Positions 15,614-24,810 of a stretch of 53,439 nt of DNA are shown here, piece by piece. Source of the DNA: Promethearchaeia archaeon. GTDB lineage: Archaea > Asgardarchaeota > Lokiarchaeia > Sigyniarchaeales > SOKP01. The position numbers and the translations under genes were made by a program. The stretch lies in the NCBI GenBank assembly GCA_029856235.1, contig JAHQWP010000033.1:1-53439 (forward strand). The letters run 5' to 3'. The notes below the pieces were generated by a model. The model was not told the origin of the DNA, ran no database searches, and was given only the letters and a program-made list of their open reading frames with translations. The stretch's first letter is position 1, and every line of letters begins with the position of its first letter.

Positions 15614-15979
15614 TTAGTCCAATTTAAAACTGTATTTGTTATATGCAGCTCGAGTAAGACCTACATAGTTATCCGATATTCTGTAAGATAATTTTCCGTT
15701 TATTATTTTTTTTTCTACGTAATCGTTTTTCAGGTGATGATTTAACGAGTGAATCATTGTCCCTAAGGTTACAGCACCCATGTATTTCATTTTTTGTTTA
15801 GCTACTCTAATTAAATCCAACTCTGAGTGCCAATTCCCATCGAGCAAGGACATTAAAATGTCGTTTTTTACTGGAGTTTTAATGTTCTTTAATTTATTAA
15901 ATAGCTGAGAATAATCAGGTTTATAGTACTTTTTAAGGATTTTCGTTTGTTCAAAACTTGTATTTTGAGGTCCTTCCAT
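15614..15979 (-). CDS. Winged-helix DNA-binding-like protein
   Basis: A 121-residue soluble basic protein. The central part (NDILMSLLDGNWHSELDL through DYVEKKIINGKLSYRISDNY) reads as helix, helix, recognition helix and a beta wing, the layout of archaeal winged-helix regulators. It has no ligand domain and no cysteine, so it could be a simple transcription regulator or nucleoid-associated protein. It is convergent with topoisomerase, with 21 bases between the stops, and downstream of the actin gene on the same strand with a 133-base gap. Targets unknown. Confidence 0.6.
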   Translation of the reverse strand: MEGPQNTSFEQTKILKKYYKPDYSQLFNKLKNIKTPVKNDILMSLLDGNWHSELDLIRVAKQKMKYMGAVTLGTMIHSLNHHLKNDYVEKKIINGKLSYRISDNYVGLTRAAYNKYSFKLD

Positions 15980-16112: not shown

Positions 16113-17225
16113 TCATAGAAGGTCGTCAGGAATGCCTTCATTGAAGTATTTCGCTCTGGTTACCCAGTTTTGTTCAAATTCAGGGATCATTGCTAAAATC
16201 GAACCCCCAACCCAAACTGAGAAAATTCGTTCCCGGGGGGCTATTATTTTGATGACTTGATTTTTTTTATTTCGGCGAGCTAGCTCAATTTCTAATTCTT
16301 GATAAATTCGAGATTTTATGTTGGGAAACATAGAAGAACCTCCTGATAAAAAAATATTGTTTAATAAATCGGGACGAACATCTAAGTCGCACATTTCAAT
16401 AACATCCATGATGGCCTCTGGGAGAGAGATTTCTTCTAATTCCATAGATGGATTGAACAGCAATTCAGGCACTTCAAACCTCTCTCTAGCTAAAGAAATT
16501 GTTGATCCATCTGGTAAGGAGTATTCTTTTTCGTATTGTTCAGCTCTTTTCAAATCTTCTTTATAATCAAGAGACACAAAACACGCTTTTTCTTTCAAGG
16601 CTCTTACGAGTTCTCGTCTAATTGAAGAATCAGTCGCAAATCCTCTTTCACCTAATATTTTTTCCATGAACCTCGTTAAAGTTCTTCCACCAATATCAAG
16701 ATACTTAATTGCGTGGTCTAGTTTATATCCTTGATAGATGGGGGTTATTCTTGTAAGACTATCTCCGATCTCTACAACTAAGCCCGTTTGAAAACCGCCG
16801 GCGTACAAAGTAAGCATAGAGTCTAAGACAGGATAAAAAGCTCTACATTGATATTTTTCTAAGAATAATTCAAATAATTTCTTTAAATCGCTGTAGGGAA
16901 ATAAAGGATGTACCGCAAATAACACATTAACCAAGCTCGGATCTACTCTTAAATTGTAAAAAATGTAATCAATTATTTTCTCAAACGAGAGCCAGTCTTG
17001 GATTATACCTTTGTCTATGGGGTAAAAAACTTTGTACAATCCTATTGATTGGATTTCGTCTCCTACATAAAAATCGTCCTTTCTAATACCCGCATATTCG
17101 TAATCAATCTGCCTATATTTCGGTGTTCCTACGACTGTGAAGAAAACTTGAGATGGCATATCTTCACCCCCGAAACCTGCTTTAGCCGAAAATTGCCCAA
17201 TATCTAATACTACAGTAAGGTTCAT
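16113..17225 (-). CDS. Divergent actin-family protein
   Basis: A full-length actin fold of 370 residues. Matches to eukaryotic actin include AKAGFGGED near the N-terminus, YVGDE-QS, IFYNLRV, PIYQGYKLDHAI, KEKACFVSLDYKEDLK, the segment SLPDGSTISLARERF, LSGGSSMFPNI and the C-terminal IIAPRERIFSVWVGGSILA. Asp8 and Lys15 (actin D11 and K18) remain. By hand alignment, Gln137 of actin is Asp135, Asp154 is Glu152, His161 is Arg159, and the first phosphate loop GSG reads GQF. Three residues important for ATP hydrolysis are therefore changed, as in some actin-related proteins. It may form filaments with altered turnover or act as an Arp-like regulator. A TATA box about 25 bases upstream implies a leaderless mRNA. 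A polyproline protein is encoded 2 kb away. Confidence 0.9.
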   Translation of the reverse strand: MNLTVVLDIGQFSAKAGFGGEDMPSQVFFTVVGTPKYRQIDYEYAGIRKDDFYVGDEIQSIGLYKVFYPIDKGIIQDWLSFEKIIDYIFYNLRVDPSLVNVLFAVHPLFPYSDLKKLFELFLEKYQCRAFYPVLDSMLTLYAGGFQTGLVVEIGDSLTRITPIYQGYKLDHAIKYLDIGGRTLTRFMEKILGERGFATDSSIRRELVRALKEKACFVSLDYKEDLKRAEQYEKEYSLPDGSTISLARERFEVPELLFNPSMELEEISLPEAIMDVIEMCDLDVRPDLLNNIFLSGGSSMFPNIKSRIYQELEIELARRNKKNQVIKIIAPRERIFSVWVGGSILAMIPEFEQNWVTRAKYFNEGIPDDLL

Positions 17226-18372: not shown

Positions 18373-19119
18373 CTATACTAGTAAAATTCTTAAGGGAGTA
18401 TAAGTAGTATCAGGTATGTAAGCTTCTCCATATTGAGAATTTATCTCATTCCCACGTAAAATAGCTGTATCTTCTGCCCATTCAAGAATTCTTTCTAATA
18501 CTTCTTTCTGTGATTTATATACACTATTAAAGATTTCTTTTTTTTTCTGCCAGTATTTTTCGATATCTACTACTATAAAAACTGAACCTTCTACATATTG
18601 GAACTTGCACGATGGGGATTCGTAATAATAAACTCCTAAGGGCGTCCAGTTTCTCTCATAACCTCCATATGCTTTACCCGTTGAACAATGATAGATTGCT
18701 TCTTTTGAGATTAAGGATAAATTCCTATGAACACGGTGAAAATCTGAATAATGAGGTAGTAAGATAATTTGCGGTTTTATATCTCTTATTAAGTTCGTTA
18801 TTTCCGAGATATGTTTGCTATTGACATTTAATTCATCGTATCCTAATTCGATTATCCTGCATTTCAAAGTTGTCTGAATTAATTCAAGTTCTTGCTGTCT
18901 TTGATTTTCTATCTCTGATTTTTGATCGTATCTTGCATATCCACCCAATCCACTTGTTGCTACAACTACGAATAGTTCAGAACCCAAAGCCTGATATTTA
19001 AGTATCGTTCCACCACATGATATTATTTCATCATCTGGGTGACCCGCAAAGACCAATATACGTTTAGGAACTACTACGGGAATATCGTTATCGCTAATAA
19101 TAGAATTGTTATTCTCCAT
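18373..19119 (-). CDS. PIG-L/LmbE-family N-acetyl-sugar deacetylase
   Basis: A zinc-dependent de-N-acetylase of 248 residues. The signature AGHPDDE (residues 25-31) gives the zinc ligands His27 and Asp30 and catalytic Asp29, and a later HxxDxHxxH-like segment (HYSDFHRVH) supplies the third ligand. Relatives deacetylate GlcNAc-phosphatidylinositol in eukaryotes and GlcNAc-inositol or diacetylchitobiose in bacteria and archaea; the substrate here is open. No signal peptide is present, so it is cytoplasmic or at the inner membrane face. It lies 115 bases downstream of the proline-rich gene on the same strand and may share its transcript. Confidence 0.88.
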   Translation of the reverse strand: MENNNSIISDNDIPVVVPKRILVFAGHPDDEIISCGGTILKYQALGSELFVVVATSGLGGYARYDQKSEIENQRQQELELIQTTLKCRIIELGYDELNVNSKHISEITNLIRDIKPQIILLPHYSDFHRVHRNLSLISKEAIYHCSTGKAYGGYERNWTPLGVYYYESPSCKFQYVEGSVFIVVDIEKYWQKKKEIFNSVYKSQKEVLERILEWAEDTAILRGNEINSQYGEAYIPDTTYTPLRILLV

Positions 19120-19234: not shown

Positions 19235-19927
19235 TTAATCTCCTCTCATTATTTTCTTTAAGCGATTCAATTCTTCTAACATTTCGTCGCGTAAAGAACT
19301 CAATCCACCACCAGCTTGAGGTGCCGCTGCTACTGGTGATGTTGTAGGCGCGCCAGGTGGTCTTGCAGGAATACCTGTAGCAGGAGCTGCAGGTGGAGTT
19401 GGTCTTTTAGCAAATGATGGTGTTTGAACCACTCCCTTATTTGGTGCTTGAGGAGGACCACTTCCAGCAGTAGGAGGCAATTTTGGTGCGGGTGGTAAAT
19501 TAGAGCGTTTAGGGGGTCCACCTGTAACTGGTGCCTTAGGAGGTGCTCCACTTGCAGGTCTTTTTGGAGGGCCGCCTCCAGGTGATTTAGGAGGGCCACC
19601 AACCCTAGGTGAAGCGCTCGCTGTAGCAGTTGGTGGTGCTTGTTGTGCAGCTCCAGTGCCACCACTTAGTAAATTAAACAAAGTACTGGCGGCGGCAGTT
19701 TTTGCTTGTCCCCCAGAAGGACCTACGACTTTTTTAGAGGATGTGCTAACAGTTTTTAATTCTGGTTCAATAGAGACATCTTTCAAATCTTTCAAGGCTT
19801 TGTTTAAAGATTTTTTAAAATCGTTAATCCCTTTTACAGTTTCTTCTAAATCGTCAGAAAGGGATGTTAAACCTTTTTTCATAAAGTTTACGACTCTCTC
19901 CATCTTCTTATATTCTTTCGAAACCAA
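19235..19927 (-). CDS. Proline/glycine/alanine-rich protein with helical ends
   Basis: A 230-residue protein in three parts. Residues 1-50 are a charged coiled-coil-like helix. Residues 68-207 are low-complexity Pro/Gly/Ala with repeated GPPK/GPPQ/APPK units (about 111-114, 119-122, 128-131, 137-140, 157-160) and PPAP-type runs. Residues 208-230 form an amphipathic helix (SSLRDEMLEELNRLKKIM). The codons are much richer in G+C than flanking genes because of the composition. I know no family for it. The layout of oligomerising helix, polyproline arm and terminal helix recalls eukaryotic VASP/WASP-type actin regulators, where polyproline binds profilin. That is analogy, strengthened only by the actin gene 2 kb away. 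The start is given as TTG (19927); the ATG at residue 9 is an alternative. Confidence 0.75.
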   Translation of the reverse strand: MVSKEYKKMERVVNFMKKGLTSLSDDLEETVKGINDFKKSLNKALKDLKDVSIEPELKTVSTSSKKVVGPSGGQAKTAAASTLFNLLSGGTGAAQQAPPTATASASPRVGGPPKSPGGGPPKRPASGAPPKAPVTGGPPKRSNLPPAPKLPPTAGSGPPQAPNKGVVQTPSFAKRPTPPAAPATGIPARPPGAPTTSPVAAAPQAGGGLSSLRDEMLEELNRLKKIMRGD

Positions 19928-20194: not shown

Positions 20195-20467
20195 ATGATT
20201 ATTCCAAAGAGAGAACTCTTCATCAAGCGTGTGTATGAAATAGTAAACGAATTGAAAATTCCTTTAATCGATGAAAGGGTATATGAAAAAGCTAACTTTA
20301 GTACTGGCTCAGCTGTAGCGAATGTAGTATTTAAGTTCGAAGAGGATGAATCAGTAATAAGGGGTTTTTTAGGTTTAGCTGAATACTTTCATACTGTCGT
20401 AATAAAGGTTAAAGATCAATTTTATATCCCTCATGCAACGATCCTTTTTAAATTGCTCAGTTCGTAA
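20195..20467 (+). CDS. Small hypothetical protein
   Basis: A 90-residue soluble protein opening with MIIPKRELFIKRVYEIVNEL. It appears alpha/beta with a helical start and two hydrophobic strands near FHTVVIKV and FYIPHATILF. I recognise no family and see no cofactor motif. An AGGTG immediately before the ATG is too close for a normal SD site, so the start may be leaderless. It is divergent from the proline-rich gene across an AT-rich 267-base gap containing long A and T runs that could hold both promoters. A T-run follows the stop, suggesting a single-gene transcript. Confidence 0.6.
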   Translation: MIIPKRELFIKRVYEIVNELKIPLIDERVYEKANFSTGSAVANVVFKFEEDESVIRGFLGLAEYFHTVVIKVKDQFYIPHATILFKLLSS

Positions 20468-22251: not shown

Positions 22252-22389
22252 ATTTATTTGTAATTTTTCATACTTTTACATTTTTGGCTAAGAATCAATT
22301 ATTAAGGAGGATTTTTATACCTAAATTCCCATATTATAGAATAACTAAGATTTATACGATAAATATTACTCAATTTAGGGTTGAAAATT

Positions 22390-24810
22390 ATGAATAAAAA
22401 CACAAAAAATAAGCAAATAGTATTGATTGTTTTAGCAGTTTTCCTTACAACATTTAATTTGAGTGGACTATTTTCACCAGTTAAAGCAGGACCAGATATT
22501 CCTGAAGAACACAATAATAACGGCTGGCATTGGGGAATAGATATTGGTGATGAATTATATTGGGAAGTAGAAGTAGTAATTACAAACTATTCGAGTGGAG
22601 ACGTTACCATGATGTTTAAAGACATCTGGATTTACAACATAACTTCAATTGAAAATGTTACATTTGATTGGTTAGGAGTAAACGAATTTTCTCAAGTTAA
22701 CGCAACGCAATGCTACCATAATATTACCGAAGGAGTCATAGTTCCTTATGGACCATCGTCAGAATTTATATCATTTGGATATAATAATTCAGATAGTATA
22801 CAACACAAGGTTCGCGCAGGGATGAGTGCAGCTCCACAAATCCTTCCAATTAACGGTTCTAGTTTTGATGTTGGCGTTTTAGCTGATATCCTCAACGAGT
22901 CTTTTTATGGTCCTCTTTCTATGCACGGTTATAACCAATTCAGTAGTTATTCTTCAAACATTGGAGATAATAGTATTTCATTTTTTAACTCAACTGATAA
23001 CTATTACATGTATTTGGAATATAATCCAACTGACGGTGTAGCGGAATATGCAGAAGCGTACATAAGAGTTACTATGGGAGATTTAATGTTAATTAATGTG
23101 ACAATGCAAAGAGTAATGGATTATGATATAACTGACGAAATAGAGTGGGGCGTTAATATAGGAGATACCTTTTTTTACGATTGGACTGAAGGTGGTATGG
23201 GTAGCTATTACGATATCAAAATAGAAATCGTAGATTTTATAGAAAGAGAACTTCCAAAATCGAATAATGCGTTTATGGAGGGAGATATTAACATGGTTTT
23301 TCAAGCAGTTGTTGCTAACTTGTCGGTCTGGGACGGGATTGAATATGAAATTGAAGAGGATAATATGCCTATAGGGATGGCTAATAATTTCTACTTCCAA
23401 TATTTCGATGAAAATTTTTCACCGGAATTTAATTTTGTAATTCCTAGTAACACATTGAAGGAAGATATAGAGTACATGTGGAATCTGGATTCTCTCAGGA
23501 TTTGGGACGCACCATTTGATGAGATTCAAATTATTGAGAATGGGAACTTTGATTTTATGCTAAGAAATTCTTCTGATAACTTTAAAGTAGAAATGACGAT
23601 CGATAAATCAACAGGAATAACACAATCGTTTATGATTCACGAATCTGGTGACATTCAGTTATACTACGAGATAAAAGATATGACTCTCGTCGAGTGGAAC
23701 GTAAATATTGGAGATATCATCTATTACAAGCAAAATACTCACGATGGAGAGATGTACAGGAGGGCAATTATCGCATTCACAGACGGCGAATTCATCAATT
23801 TGACTCAATGGGAGGTGGATAGCGGTGGAGCCTTCACGAAAATCCCGGGTCAACCGGAGTTACAATTCTTTAAGGCAATGATTGCAGAATTTGAAGAATT
23901 TGACGAAGACACAGGGACTTGGCAAGATATGGGAGACGATCTTTTCCTCGAAGCGAATACATATTGGCCAATATCTCCAGCGGCTATGTTTGGTAGCGGT
24001 TCTCCTCCATTATTCGTACCGATAGGGTTTACAGGAGTAGATCTTGCCAATGTCTTAGCATTGCTCAGTAGTGTATTTGATGAGTCGACTTTTAACGAGG
24101 ATCACATAATTCTTCGAAATTCGACACTTGACAGGCAATTAGACACTTACATTGATGTAACCACGGGGGCTATAACATTTATGGGAGGGTGGATGAATAT
24201 GCCAGGTGGAGACGACACAACTTGGACGTACATGACTTTTTATCCAATGCATAACGAAACGCTTCTCTCTGGAACCAACAATATACAAGTCCCTAATGAA
24301 GCTATAAGCGAAATTTCGATTTCAAACATTATAGCGATTACGAATAATACAGGTGTAGAGTTGGTTACTGCCCTTTTAGACATGAATCCTATAAACACAA
24401 CCCTCACTAATGGAACAGTACTCTACTACAACGATCTTCTAATTACCAATATGACGGGACTAGAGAACTTAACTTTTTACCTCAAATTTGATGGATCATT
24501 CGATCTAGACAACTATAATCTGACCTTTTGGGTGTGGAACATGAGTGGTAACAATCAATGGGAAGCAGCTCCTTCATCAGCAGCAAGTTGGTTTATATAT
24601 GATTACGATGACAATTCACTGACAATGAACTTCCCTATTAGCGGTAGTTCAGGAACCTTATCTATCTTCATGGCAATCTCATATATATATATTGGCCCTC
24701 CTGTTGATGACGCAATTCCCGGATTTTCGTTGTTAACGACCTTTGGCTTTCTTATACTAGGTTTAATTGGTTTAGTAATGATCCACTACAAAAAAATTAA
24801 GAAATTATAA
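22390..24810 (+). CDS. Large surface protein with signal peptide and PGF-type C-terminal anchor
   Basis: An 806-residue exported protein. A basic start and hydrophobic stretch (KQIVLIVLAVFLTTF) form a signal peptide. The C-terminus IPGFSLLTTFGFLILGLIGLVMIHYKKIKK is a PGF-type sorting signal: PGF, one hydrophobic helix, then a basic tail, which in archaea is processed by an archaeosortase. Between them the sequence is beta-rich and acidic with many N-x-S/T glycosylation sequons. A motif W-x-V/I-x-IGD-x2-Y/F-Y recurs near residues 48, 253 and 436, marking three related domains of about 190 residues. I chose the ATG at 22390 over the TTG at 22381 because it gives a normal signal peptide. Function beyond cell-surface display is unknown. 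Confidence 0.82.
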   Translation: MNKNTKNKQIVLIVLAVFLTTFNLSGLFSPVKAGPDIPEEHNNNGWHWGIDIGDELYWEVEVVITNYSSGDVTMMFKDIWIYNITSIENVTFDWLGVNEFSQVNATQCYHNITEGVIVPYGPSSEFISFGYNNSDSIQHKVRAGMSAAPQILPINGSSFDVGVLADILNESFYGPLSMHGYNQFSSYSSNIGDNSISFFNSTDNYYMYLEYNPTDGVAEYAEAYIRVTMGDLMLINVTMQRVMDYDITDEIEWGVNIGDTFFYDWTEGGMGSYYDIKIEIVDFIERELPKSNNAFMEGDINMVFQAVVANLSVWDGIEYEIEEDNMPIGMANNFYFQYFDENFSPEFNFVIPSNTLKEDIEYMWNLDSLRIWDAPFDEIQIIENGNFDFMLRNSSDNFKVEMTIDKSTGITQSFMIHESGDIQLYYEIKDMTLVEWNVNIGDIIYYKQNTHDGEMYRRAIIAFTDGEFINLTQWEVDSGGAFTKIPGQPELQFFKAMIAEFEEFDEDTGTWQDMGDDLFLEANTYWPISPAAMFGSGSPPLFVPIGFTGVDLANVLALLSSVFDESTFNEDHIILRNSTLDRQLDTYIDVTTGAITFMGGWMNMPGGDDTTWTYMTFYPMHNETLLSGTNNIQVPNEAISEISISNIIAITNNTGVELVTALLDMNPINTTLTNGTVLYYNDLLITNMTGLENLTFYLKFDGSFDLDNYNLTFWVWNMSGNNQWEAAPSSAASWFIYDYDDNSLTMNFPISGSSGTLSIFMAISYIYIGPPVDDAIPGFSLLTTFGFLILGLIGLVMIHYKKIKKL

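Follow-up and report, generated by a model that had tools for sequence, protein, structure and literature searches.

What does a protein with a proline-rich arm do beside an actin-family gene in a lokiarchaeal genome? This question is raised by a gene at positions 19235 to 19927 (minus strand) of the window, the term used here for the whole stretch of 53,439 nucleotides that was analyzed. The initial annotation had likened the encoded protein to the VASP/WASP-type regulators of eukaryotes and raised the possibility that it binds profilin or actin through its polyproline. By comparison with other Asgard genomes, the near-invariant part of the protein was found to be its C-terminal segment, not the arm.

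Parts of the proline-arm protein and its actin-family neighbor

The gene encodes 230 aa from a TTG start and comprises, in order, a coiled coil, a short hydrophobic motif, a proline-rich arm and a putative C-terminal docking segment. Because full-length orthologues were found in 18 of the 24 genomes of the same genus (the window's own included; matches were detected in 19 of the 24) and the TTG start is kept at the identical place in 18 of 18, the open reading frame is, on comparison of these sequences, a real gene. Letters of the GAGG or GGAG type were found upstream of the TTG start in the genus orthologues. The orthologues are 71-94% identical to the window protein, and conservation in the genus alignment falls in three places, namely the first ~50 residues, the short motif KTAAASTLFxLLSG and a near-invariant stretch formed by the last ~24 residues. 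Among the 18 orthologues, the intervening proline-rich arm differs in both length and sequence and is the least conserved part of the protein. Promoter and terminator scans of the gene gave signals at the level of shuffles, and no RNA element was detected near it at gathering score. Also near the locus, at positions 22381-24810 (plus strand), an 809-aa protein with a secreted look and a hydrophobic C-terminal end is encoded, for which no Pfam match was found.

The N-terminal helix, initially described as coiled-coil-like, was confirmed as a likely coiled coil. Residues about 4-52 (19772..19918, minus strand) display a hydrophobic peak at 102.9 degrees per residue and are conserved in the 18 genus orthologues; the 3.5-residue hydrophobic (heptad) periodicity of the first ~50 residues was reached by none of 5000 shuffles. 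The coiled coil is followed by a second conserved short motif, KTAAASTLFNLLSG, at residues 76-89 (19661..19702, minus strand), with two hydrophobic residues, any residue and two further hydrophobic residues.

The Pro/Ala/Gly-rich arm, with its GPPK-type units, occupies residues about 90-208 (19304..19660, minus strand). The composition first ascribed to it was borne out (33 Pro, 22 Ala and 16 Gly in the 117 residues 89-205), and its length, put at about 140 residues, proved somewhat shorter, with the proline-rich stretch covering residues ~87-210. Profilin-binding proline runs are of about five or more. The longest run is 2 in the window protein and in six of seven other proteins measured from its own GTDB family (f1), the seventh having one run of 4; runs of 5 to 7 were found in single carriers of the C-terminal segment from families f12, f13, f16 and f17. 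Profilin-like genes are possible, with three matches below the Pfam cut-off (the best at 23.6 vs 25 bits) in a loose search; of the 14 bacteria and archaea used as controls, two likewise gave matches below the cut-off.

The gene had also been noted for G+C-rich codons. Its G+C content does exceed that of the window (44.9% vs 32.3%), but its codon use is not peculiar: third-position GC (22.1%) is below that of all seven neighboring genes measured (23.8-34.2%) and therefore gives no sign of foreign codon use. The excess is a matter of amino-acid composition only (Pro, Ala and Gly codons). A foreign origin deduced from G+C was rejected, the third-position GC being ordinary.

The protein ends in a near-invariant, putative docking segment (residues 209-230, LSSLRDEMLEELNRLKKIMRGD; 19238..19303, minus strand) that recurs as an Asgard-wide module. 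Among the genus orthologues the segment GGGLSSLRDEMLEELNRLKKIMRG is invariant or nearly so, and its pattern, SLRxEMLxELxRLKxIM, spans ~17 residues. The segment reads as a probable helix, and in this respect the initial description of a C-terminal helix was retained; the amphipathic character given to that helix was not, as hydrophobic moments were no better than those of shuffles (p >= 0.05) in 14 of 16 sequences and for the family mean. Within the window's genome the proline-arm gene is the only carrier of the segment, the next match having an E-value of 1.1.

The view that the protein belongs to no described family held in Pfam and NCBIfam. The window protein matched 0 Pfam families at E<=0.01, and nothing above chance was found in Pfam, NCBIfam or PDB for this protein, for a 90-aa protein encoded nearby or for the C-terminal segment. 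The segment gave no significant sequence match among solved chains in a PDB sequence set with a floor of 20 residues, below which the 17-residue peptide of arcadin-2 falls. Among the matching open-licence PMC papers listed, none described the protein in its title or the beginning of its abstract. As judged from its matches, the proline-arm protein is an undescribed Asgard protein, present in Lokiarchaea and in most other Asgard archaea examined.

As the initial annotation had stated, an actin-family gene (370 aa; 16113..17225, minus strand; Pfam Actin E 3.2e-89; 41% identical to the best-scoring actin of the genome) lies about 2 kb away on the same strand. Of 42 loci, 24 had 10 kb on both sides and were taken, partly from the profile used, to belong to the window's own GTDB family; in every one of these 24 the proline-arm gene is followed on the same strand by an actin-family gene, at a median of 1.6 kb from the start of the proline-arm gene. 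An actin-family gene is also present in all 13 f1 loci that were retrieved separately. By contrast, tblastn with the three actins of the genome detected no actin in 45 carrier loci from 22 other families, which together span 573 kb with flanks of about 8 kb at most, and none was found near secondary or variant carriers in 18 loci (flanks again of about 8 kb at most). The gene order with actin thus holds for the window's own family and not beyond it, and the actin neighbor, present in 24/24 loci there vs 0/45 elsewhere, is real but lineage-specific.

In the same 24 loci, a 121-aa gene located after the actin gene (15614..15979, minus strand; no Pfam match) was found throughout, and the genes between the actin and proline-arm genes come and go: a PIG-L deacetylase gene (18373..19119, minus strand), which also adjoins the carrier in family f2, is a variable neighbor in 15 of 24 loci and a 310-aa gene is present in 1 of 24. 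A third actin-family gene of the window's genome (G000:C105:4496-5485) was observed in a long open frame of about 508 aa, with 38% identity to the best-scoring actin over 325 residues.

Distribution of the C-terminal segment

Using a profile of the full-length protein, matches were found in 77 of 227 Asgard genomes, and several of the weak matches were different proteins with only the C-terminal segment in common. A 25-column profile of the segment (A3) matched 194 of the 227 genomes at E<=0.02, a count in which the genomes of the 23 seed peptides (taken from full-length-profile carriers) are not independent, most matches are non-seed, the carrier was not read in every genome, and five genomes (G003, G010, G103, G115 and G152) are included where a secondary carrier only was seen. 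Among the 45 high-quality genomes (completeness of 90% or more, contamination of 5% or less), 40 were matched by the segment profile, and at the level of genera 54 of 61 had a match. Exactly one match (E<=0.02) was counted by eye in 161 of the 194 matching genomes, a few of these matches being to a secondary carrier (G003, G010). By family, the f5 matches were secondary carriers only, and f9, f21, f22 and f24 had no match at E<=0.02. When a 392-genome set of relatives, taken to be the same 227 Asgard genomes plus about 165 other archaea, was searched at E<=0.001, 188 of the 189 matching genomes were Asgard and one was that of another archaeon. This sole non-Asgard match, in a 0.6-Mb archaeal genome (G265), is an internal NPLRQQMLAEMDRLK in a 585-aa protein (L197:91-1845, plus strand; E 1.5e-5) and may be a chance match.

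In Lokiarchaea the segment was also detected in Sec23/24-like, DUF4140-like, zinc-ribbon and weakly UBR-box-like proteins and in a Ras-like fusion. In the Sec23/24-like carriers (L229:2-1510, plus strand; L230:1300-2964 and L236:1306-2961, minus strand) it lies after the beta-sandwich part; L230 and L236 matched Sec23_trunk and Sec23_BS over the Pfam cut-off (Sec23_trunk 3.6e-8), and L229 is similar by eye. In the DUF4140-like carriers (L227, L231, L233 and L234) it lies near the C terminus, the Pfam match of the two that were scanned (L227 and L231) being just under the cut-off with an E-value of 1e-5; in the three DUF4140-like loci viewed (L248, L249 and L250) the carrier is followed on the same strand by another gene, whose product starts with a sequence like IPTRKK or IPSRKK. 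Carriers of zinc-ribbon type (CPxC..NH or similar) were L235, L237, L239, L244, L201, L202, L080, L085 and L087, of which the L080 protein is fused to a Ras-like GTPase. The UBR-box-like carrier has a weak Pfam match (E 0.018). At least two copies of the segment are present in one protein in L085 and L087, and by eye in L232. That several unrelated proteins contain the segment, in some cases more than once, is an argument for a docking motif recognized by a common receptor.

A second Pro-rich, coiled-coil-like protein of about 140-152 aa was observed in the same genus (L092:6894-7313, L093:314-748 and L094:6560-7015, all on the minus strand). It terminates in a variant of the docking segment, SLRGAIMGELKSLFAKRK or a close match to it, and is encoded near a coiled-coil-like gene. 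The L092 protein gave nothing over the Pfam cut-off; the helical part of this second protein is presumably reminiscent of small WASH/WAVE-complex subunits.

Two anchor classes and the 90-aa gene

Carriers from the window and 49 further loci, with between one and eight taken per family, were sorted by their N-terminal parts into two classes across the 21 GTDB families with readable carriers. In the cytosolic coiled-coil class (nine families: f1, f2, f3, f4, f7, f18, f19, f20 and f25), a soluble coiled-coil-like N terminus precedes a short hydrophobic motif (LFxLLSG, LIxLLTG, VFxMF or LWxLLSG type). In the membrane-anchored class (12 families: f8, f10, f11, f12, f13, f14, f15, f17, f23, f26, f28 and f29, with f11 counted as membrane by sequence at a hydropathy of 1.70, just under the cut of 1.8), a hydrophobic membrane-spanning stretch is followed by a helical region. 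The carriers of f6, f16 and f27 were cut by contig ends and are outside these counts, and one f26 locus (L180) gave no carrier by pattern. In both classes the proline-rich arm comes next and then the segment, with 5-11 residues from its conserved core to the end of the protein; this common ending is partly an effect of selection, since an open reading frame was retained only if at least eight prolines preceded a segment lying close to its C terminus. The N-terminal parts of the two classes have no profile relation (hhalign probability 0.8%). The second motif was alignable in the 19 cytosolic-class sequences compared, with degenerate forms such as IFGIVED in some of them; inspection by eye of 12 membrane-class sequences did not reveal it.

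When 47 loci and the window were compared for their neighbors, three gene families recurred, each in seven GTDB families: a presumed ribose-5-phosphate isomerase, a presumed tRNA-splicing endonuclease and the 90-aa gene. The first two, named by reading of their sequences, recur near membrane-class carriers (the endonuclease additionally near those of f4 and f7); the recurrent neighbor of the cytosolic carriers is the 90-aa gene. In the window this gene of unknown family is located at 20195..20467 on the plus strand, and it is linked to cytosolic-class carriers in eight GTDB families. Its family was found in 88 of the 227 Asgard genomes, covering nine of nine cytosolic-class families and f6, and one of the 12 membrane-class families, f28. 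The f28 cases are two congeneric genomes, and in the one whose carrier was read, that carrier is membrane-anchored. The 90-aa family gave no significant relative in Pfam, NCBIfam or PDB, nor was arcadin-1 (5LY5) found.

The two genes were within 3.5 kb of each other in 60 of 76 genomes (those of the 88 with both coordinates, using the best match of each), in eight families and in three relative orientations; among the other 16 genomes, 15 had the carrier and the 90-aa gene on different contigs and one had them 24 kb apart. The pair is divergent in 42 of 45 f1 cases and co-directional in the other 3; outside f1, it is convergent in four families (f7, f18, f20 and f25), and both genes point the same way in f2, in f6 and in the f3 case where they lie close together. 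As the linkage survives these changes of orientation, it suggests that the 90-aa gene and the carrier form a functional pair. Among genomes of the window's genus, both genes were absent from G003, G005 and G023, by an assembly gap or by loss; G005 is 99% complete and had chance-level segment matches only. In G013 and G015 the 90-aa gene was present and the main gene absent, and in G010 a short end piece of the 90-aa gene was all that was found of it. We infer that the 90-aa protein may bind the coiled coil or the second motif, which is a candidate contact for it, and may thereby replace the membrane anchor.

Candidate receptors of the segment

Our first-ranked reading, held tentatively, is that the window protein represents, in Lokiarchaea, a tethered adaptor found across Asgard archaea, the C-terminal helix of which would dock on an actin-family protein as do arcadin-2 or ParR. 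In the sequences, a near-invariant segment ends a variable arm, and the anchor is either a cytosolic coiled coil tied genetically to the 90-aa protein or a transmembrane segment with a helical region. By this model, the coiled coil or the membrane would gather several copies of the adaptor, the arm would serve, to judge from its composition and variability, as a flexible spacer, and the segment would fold as a helix and dock into the groove of one conserved Asgard protein. Docking is proposed because the segment is near-invariant at the end of a variable arm and present in other proteins, and the presence of two or more copies in one protein fits it. The best receptor candidate, as a guess, would be a member of the actin family, bound much as crenactin is by arcadin-2 or ParM by ParR. 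The adaptor could then sequester or position actin subunits, or anchor filaments on the membrane or the 90-aa partner, and the Sec23/24-like, DUF4140-like and zinc-ribbon carriers would be further clients of the same receptor. ParR is likened here by role alone, its DNA-binding part not being seen in the Asgard protein.

An actin-family receptor is ranked first because of the gene order in the window's own family, an Asgard-wide occurrence that parallels that of Lokiactin (present in all Asgard lineages, according to the available part of PMC9834061) and a likeness to arcadin-2. In the portions of PMC5173319 at hand, arcadin-2 of Thermoproteales is described as a core, a non-conserved linker and a short conserved C-terminal segment, a layout also seen in the Asgard protein. 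The same portions report that whole arcadin-2 binds crenactin with a Kd of 31 nM, that its last 17 residues lie in the hydrophobic groove of crenactin, which is used by the D-loop, and depolymerise crenactin on their own, that binding is credited partly to a tryptophan, and that ParR is an adaptor in the groove of the actin-like ParM filament (PMC5173319). Set beside arcadin-2 by this description of architecture, the Asgard adaptor may perhaps work in a like manner, although we would not put this above an even chance. The arcadin-2 gene is reported in the same source to cluster with an actin-family gene; an actin neighbor of the Asgard carrier was found in all 24 loci of the window's own family and in none of the 45 loci of other families. 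The two also differ: the tryptophan of the arcadin-2 peptide is absent from the Asgard segment; the Asgard arm is proline-rich; and 12 of the 21 families with readable carriers are membrane-anchored. In a search of crenactin neighbors for an arcadin-2 sequence, an actin was found in 0 of 80 non-Asgard archaeal genomes (every second of about 165) at a strict E-value, at which the control genomes gave no match either.

It is possible that the segment binds an actin-family protein. Like the WH2 motif of the WASP family, it is a short, putatively helical C-terminal element preceded by a proline-rich arm, and its M-L-x-x-L resembles the LL-x-x-I with which WH2 starts; by the same pattern, however, its LKK element comes about three residues too early, and no WH2 match was found among ten C-terminal peptides by HMMER, the filters of which drop weak matches. 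Against an actin receptor stand the 45 loci of 22 other families with no actin gene, the missing tryptophan, the amphipathicity that did not reach significance, the Sec23/24-like secondary carriers, which have no obvious actin role, and the absence of the gene from some good genomes.

A non-actin receptor for the same tethered adaptor is as likely. It could be an ESCRT component (for example, the MIT domain of Vps4 or the winged helix of ESCRT-III, by analogy with the recruitment of CdvB by CdvA) or a coat or GTPase factor; a chaperone or degradation hub common to the carriers is a further candidate. The confinement of the actin link to one family is in favor of such a receptor, as is the presence of the segment in protein types as unrelated as the Sec23/24-like, DUF4140-like, zinc-ribbon and UBR-box-like carriers and the Ras-like fusion, and the 12 families with membrane-anchored carriers are consistent with a role in recruitment to membranes. 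For an ESCRT receptor in particular, no ESCRT gene was recognized by eye among the carrier neighbors listed, and the fit to the MIM1 pattern, (D/E)xxLxxRLxxL(K/R), is limited to the hydrophobic spacing and the final lysine in an alignment read by eye, the R and D/E positions not fitting. CdvA of TACK archaea resembles the window protein in combining a coiled coil with a conserved C-terminal peptide, which in CdvA serves to recruit a partner; by contrast, the PRC-barrel that forms the N terminus of CdvA in the available text of PMC10936438 has no Pfam match in the window protein.

The segment could alternatively be an oligomerisation helix similar to the Ena/VASP tetramerisation domain, within a multi-armed scaffold whose arm or coiled coil does the binding. 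The window protein shares with Ena/VASP a proline-rich arm and a short helix at the very end, and one of the secondary carriers (L232) matched VASP_tetra weakly (E 0.034), but such an E-value is expected by chance with about 40 proteins scanned singly against Pfam, and none of ten C-terminal peptides matched VASP_tetra. The window protein differs from Ena/VASP in having no EVH1 domain in Pfam, no tetramerisation-domain match and no long proline runs; moreover, the proteins with two or more copies suit docking better, and the conserved charged residues would go beyond the need of a plain coiled coil. We therefore consider oligomerisation unlikely. Most improbable is recruitment of profilin-actin by the polyproline arms as in VASP or WASP, for which the arm between helices, the actin-family neighbor and the possible profilin-like genes speak, since the actin link is limited to one family and the arm is variable with proline runs of 2 at most in the window protein, and since Loki profilin-1 and -2 are reported in the part of PMC8410842 consulted not to bind VASP polyproline, with the caveat of its authors that weak binding by Loki profilins may have been missed.

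Returning to the tethered adaptor, one short helix and one conserved cytoskeletal or membrane-remodelling receptor may constitute an Asgard-specific docking code, the helix being displayed by the adaptor, whether membrane-anchored or with a coiled coil and the 90-aa partner in place of that anchor, together with the Sec23/24-like and other clients. Such a code, which we advance with reserve, would already have been in the last common Asgard ancestor, linking its actin or membrane machinery to clients. Present in most Asgard genomes searched and in one other archaeon of the set, the module appears to be a conserved component of how Asgard cells are organized. Should the helix bind something other than actin, the peptide would be a bait for that receptor in cultured Lokiarchaea. 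Should it bind actin, the protein would be an undescribed type of Asgard actin adaptor that connects actin with membranes or with the 90-aa partner, and would bear on the origin of eukaryotic cell architecture.
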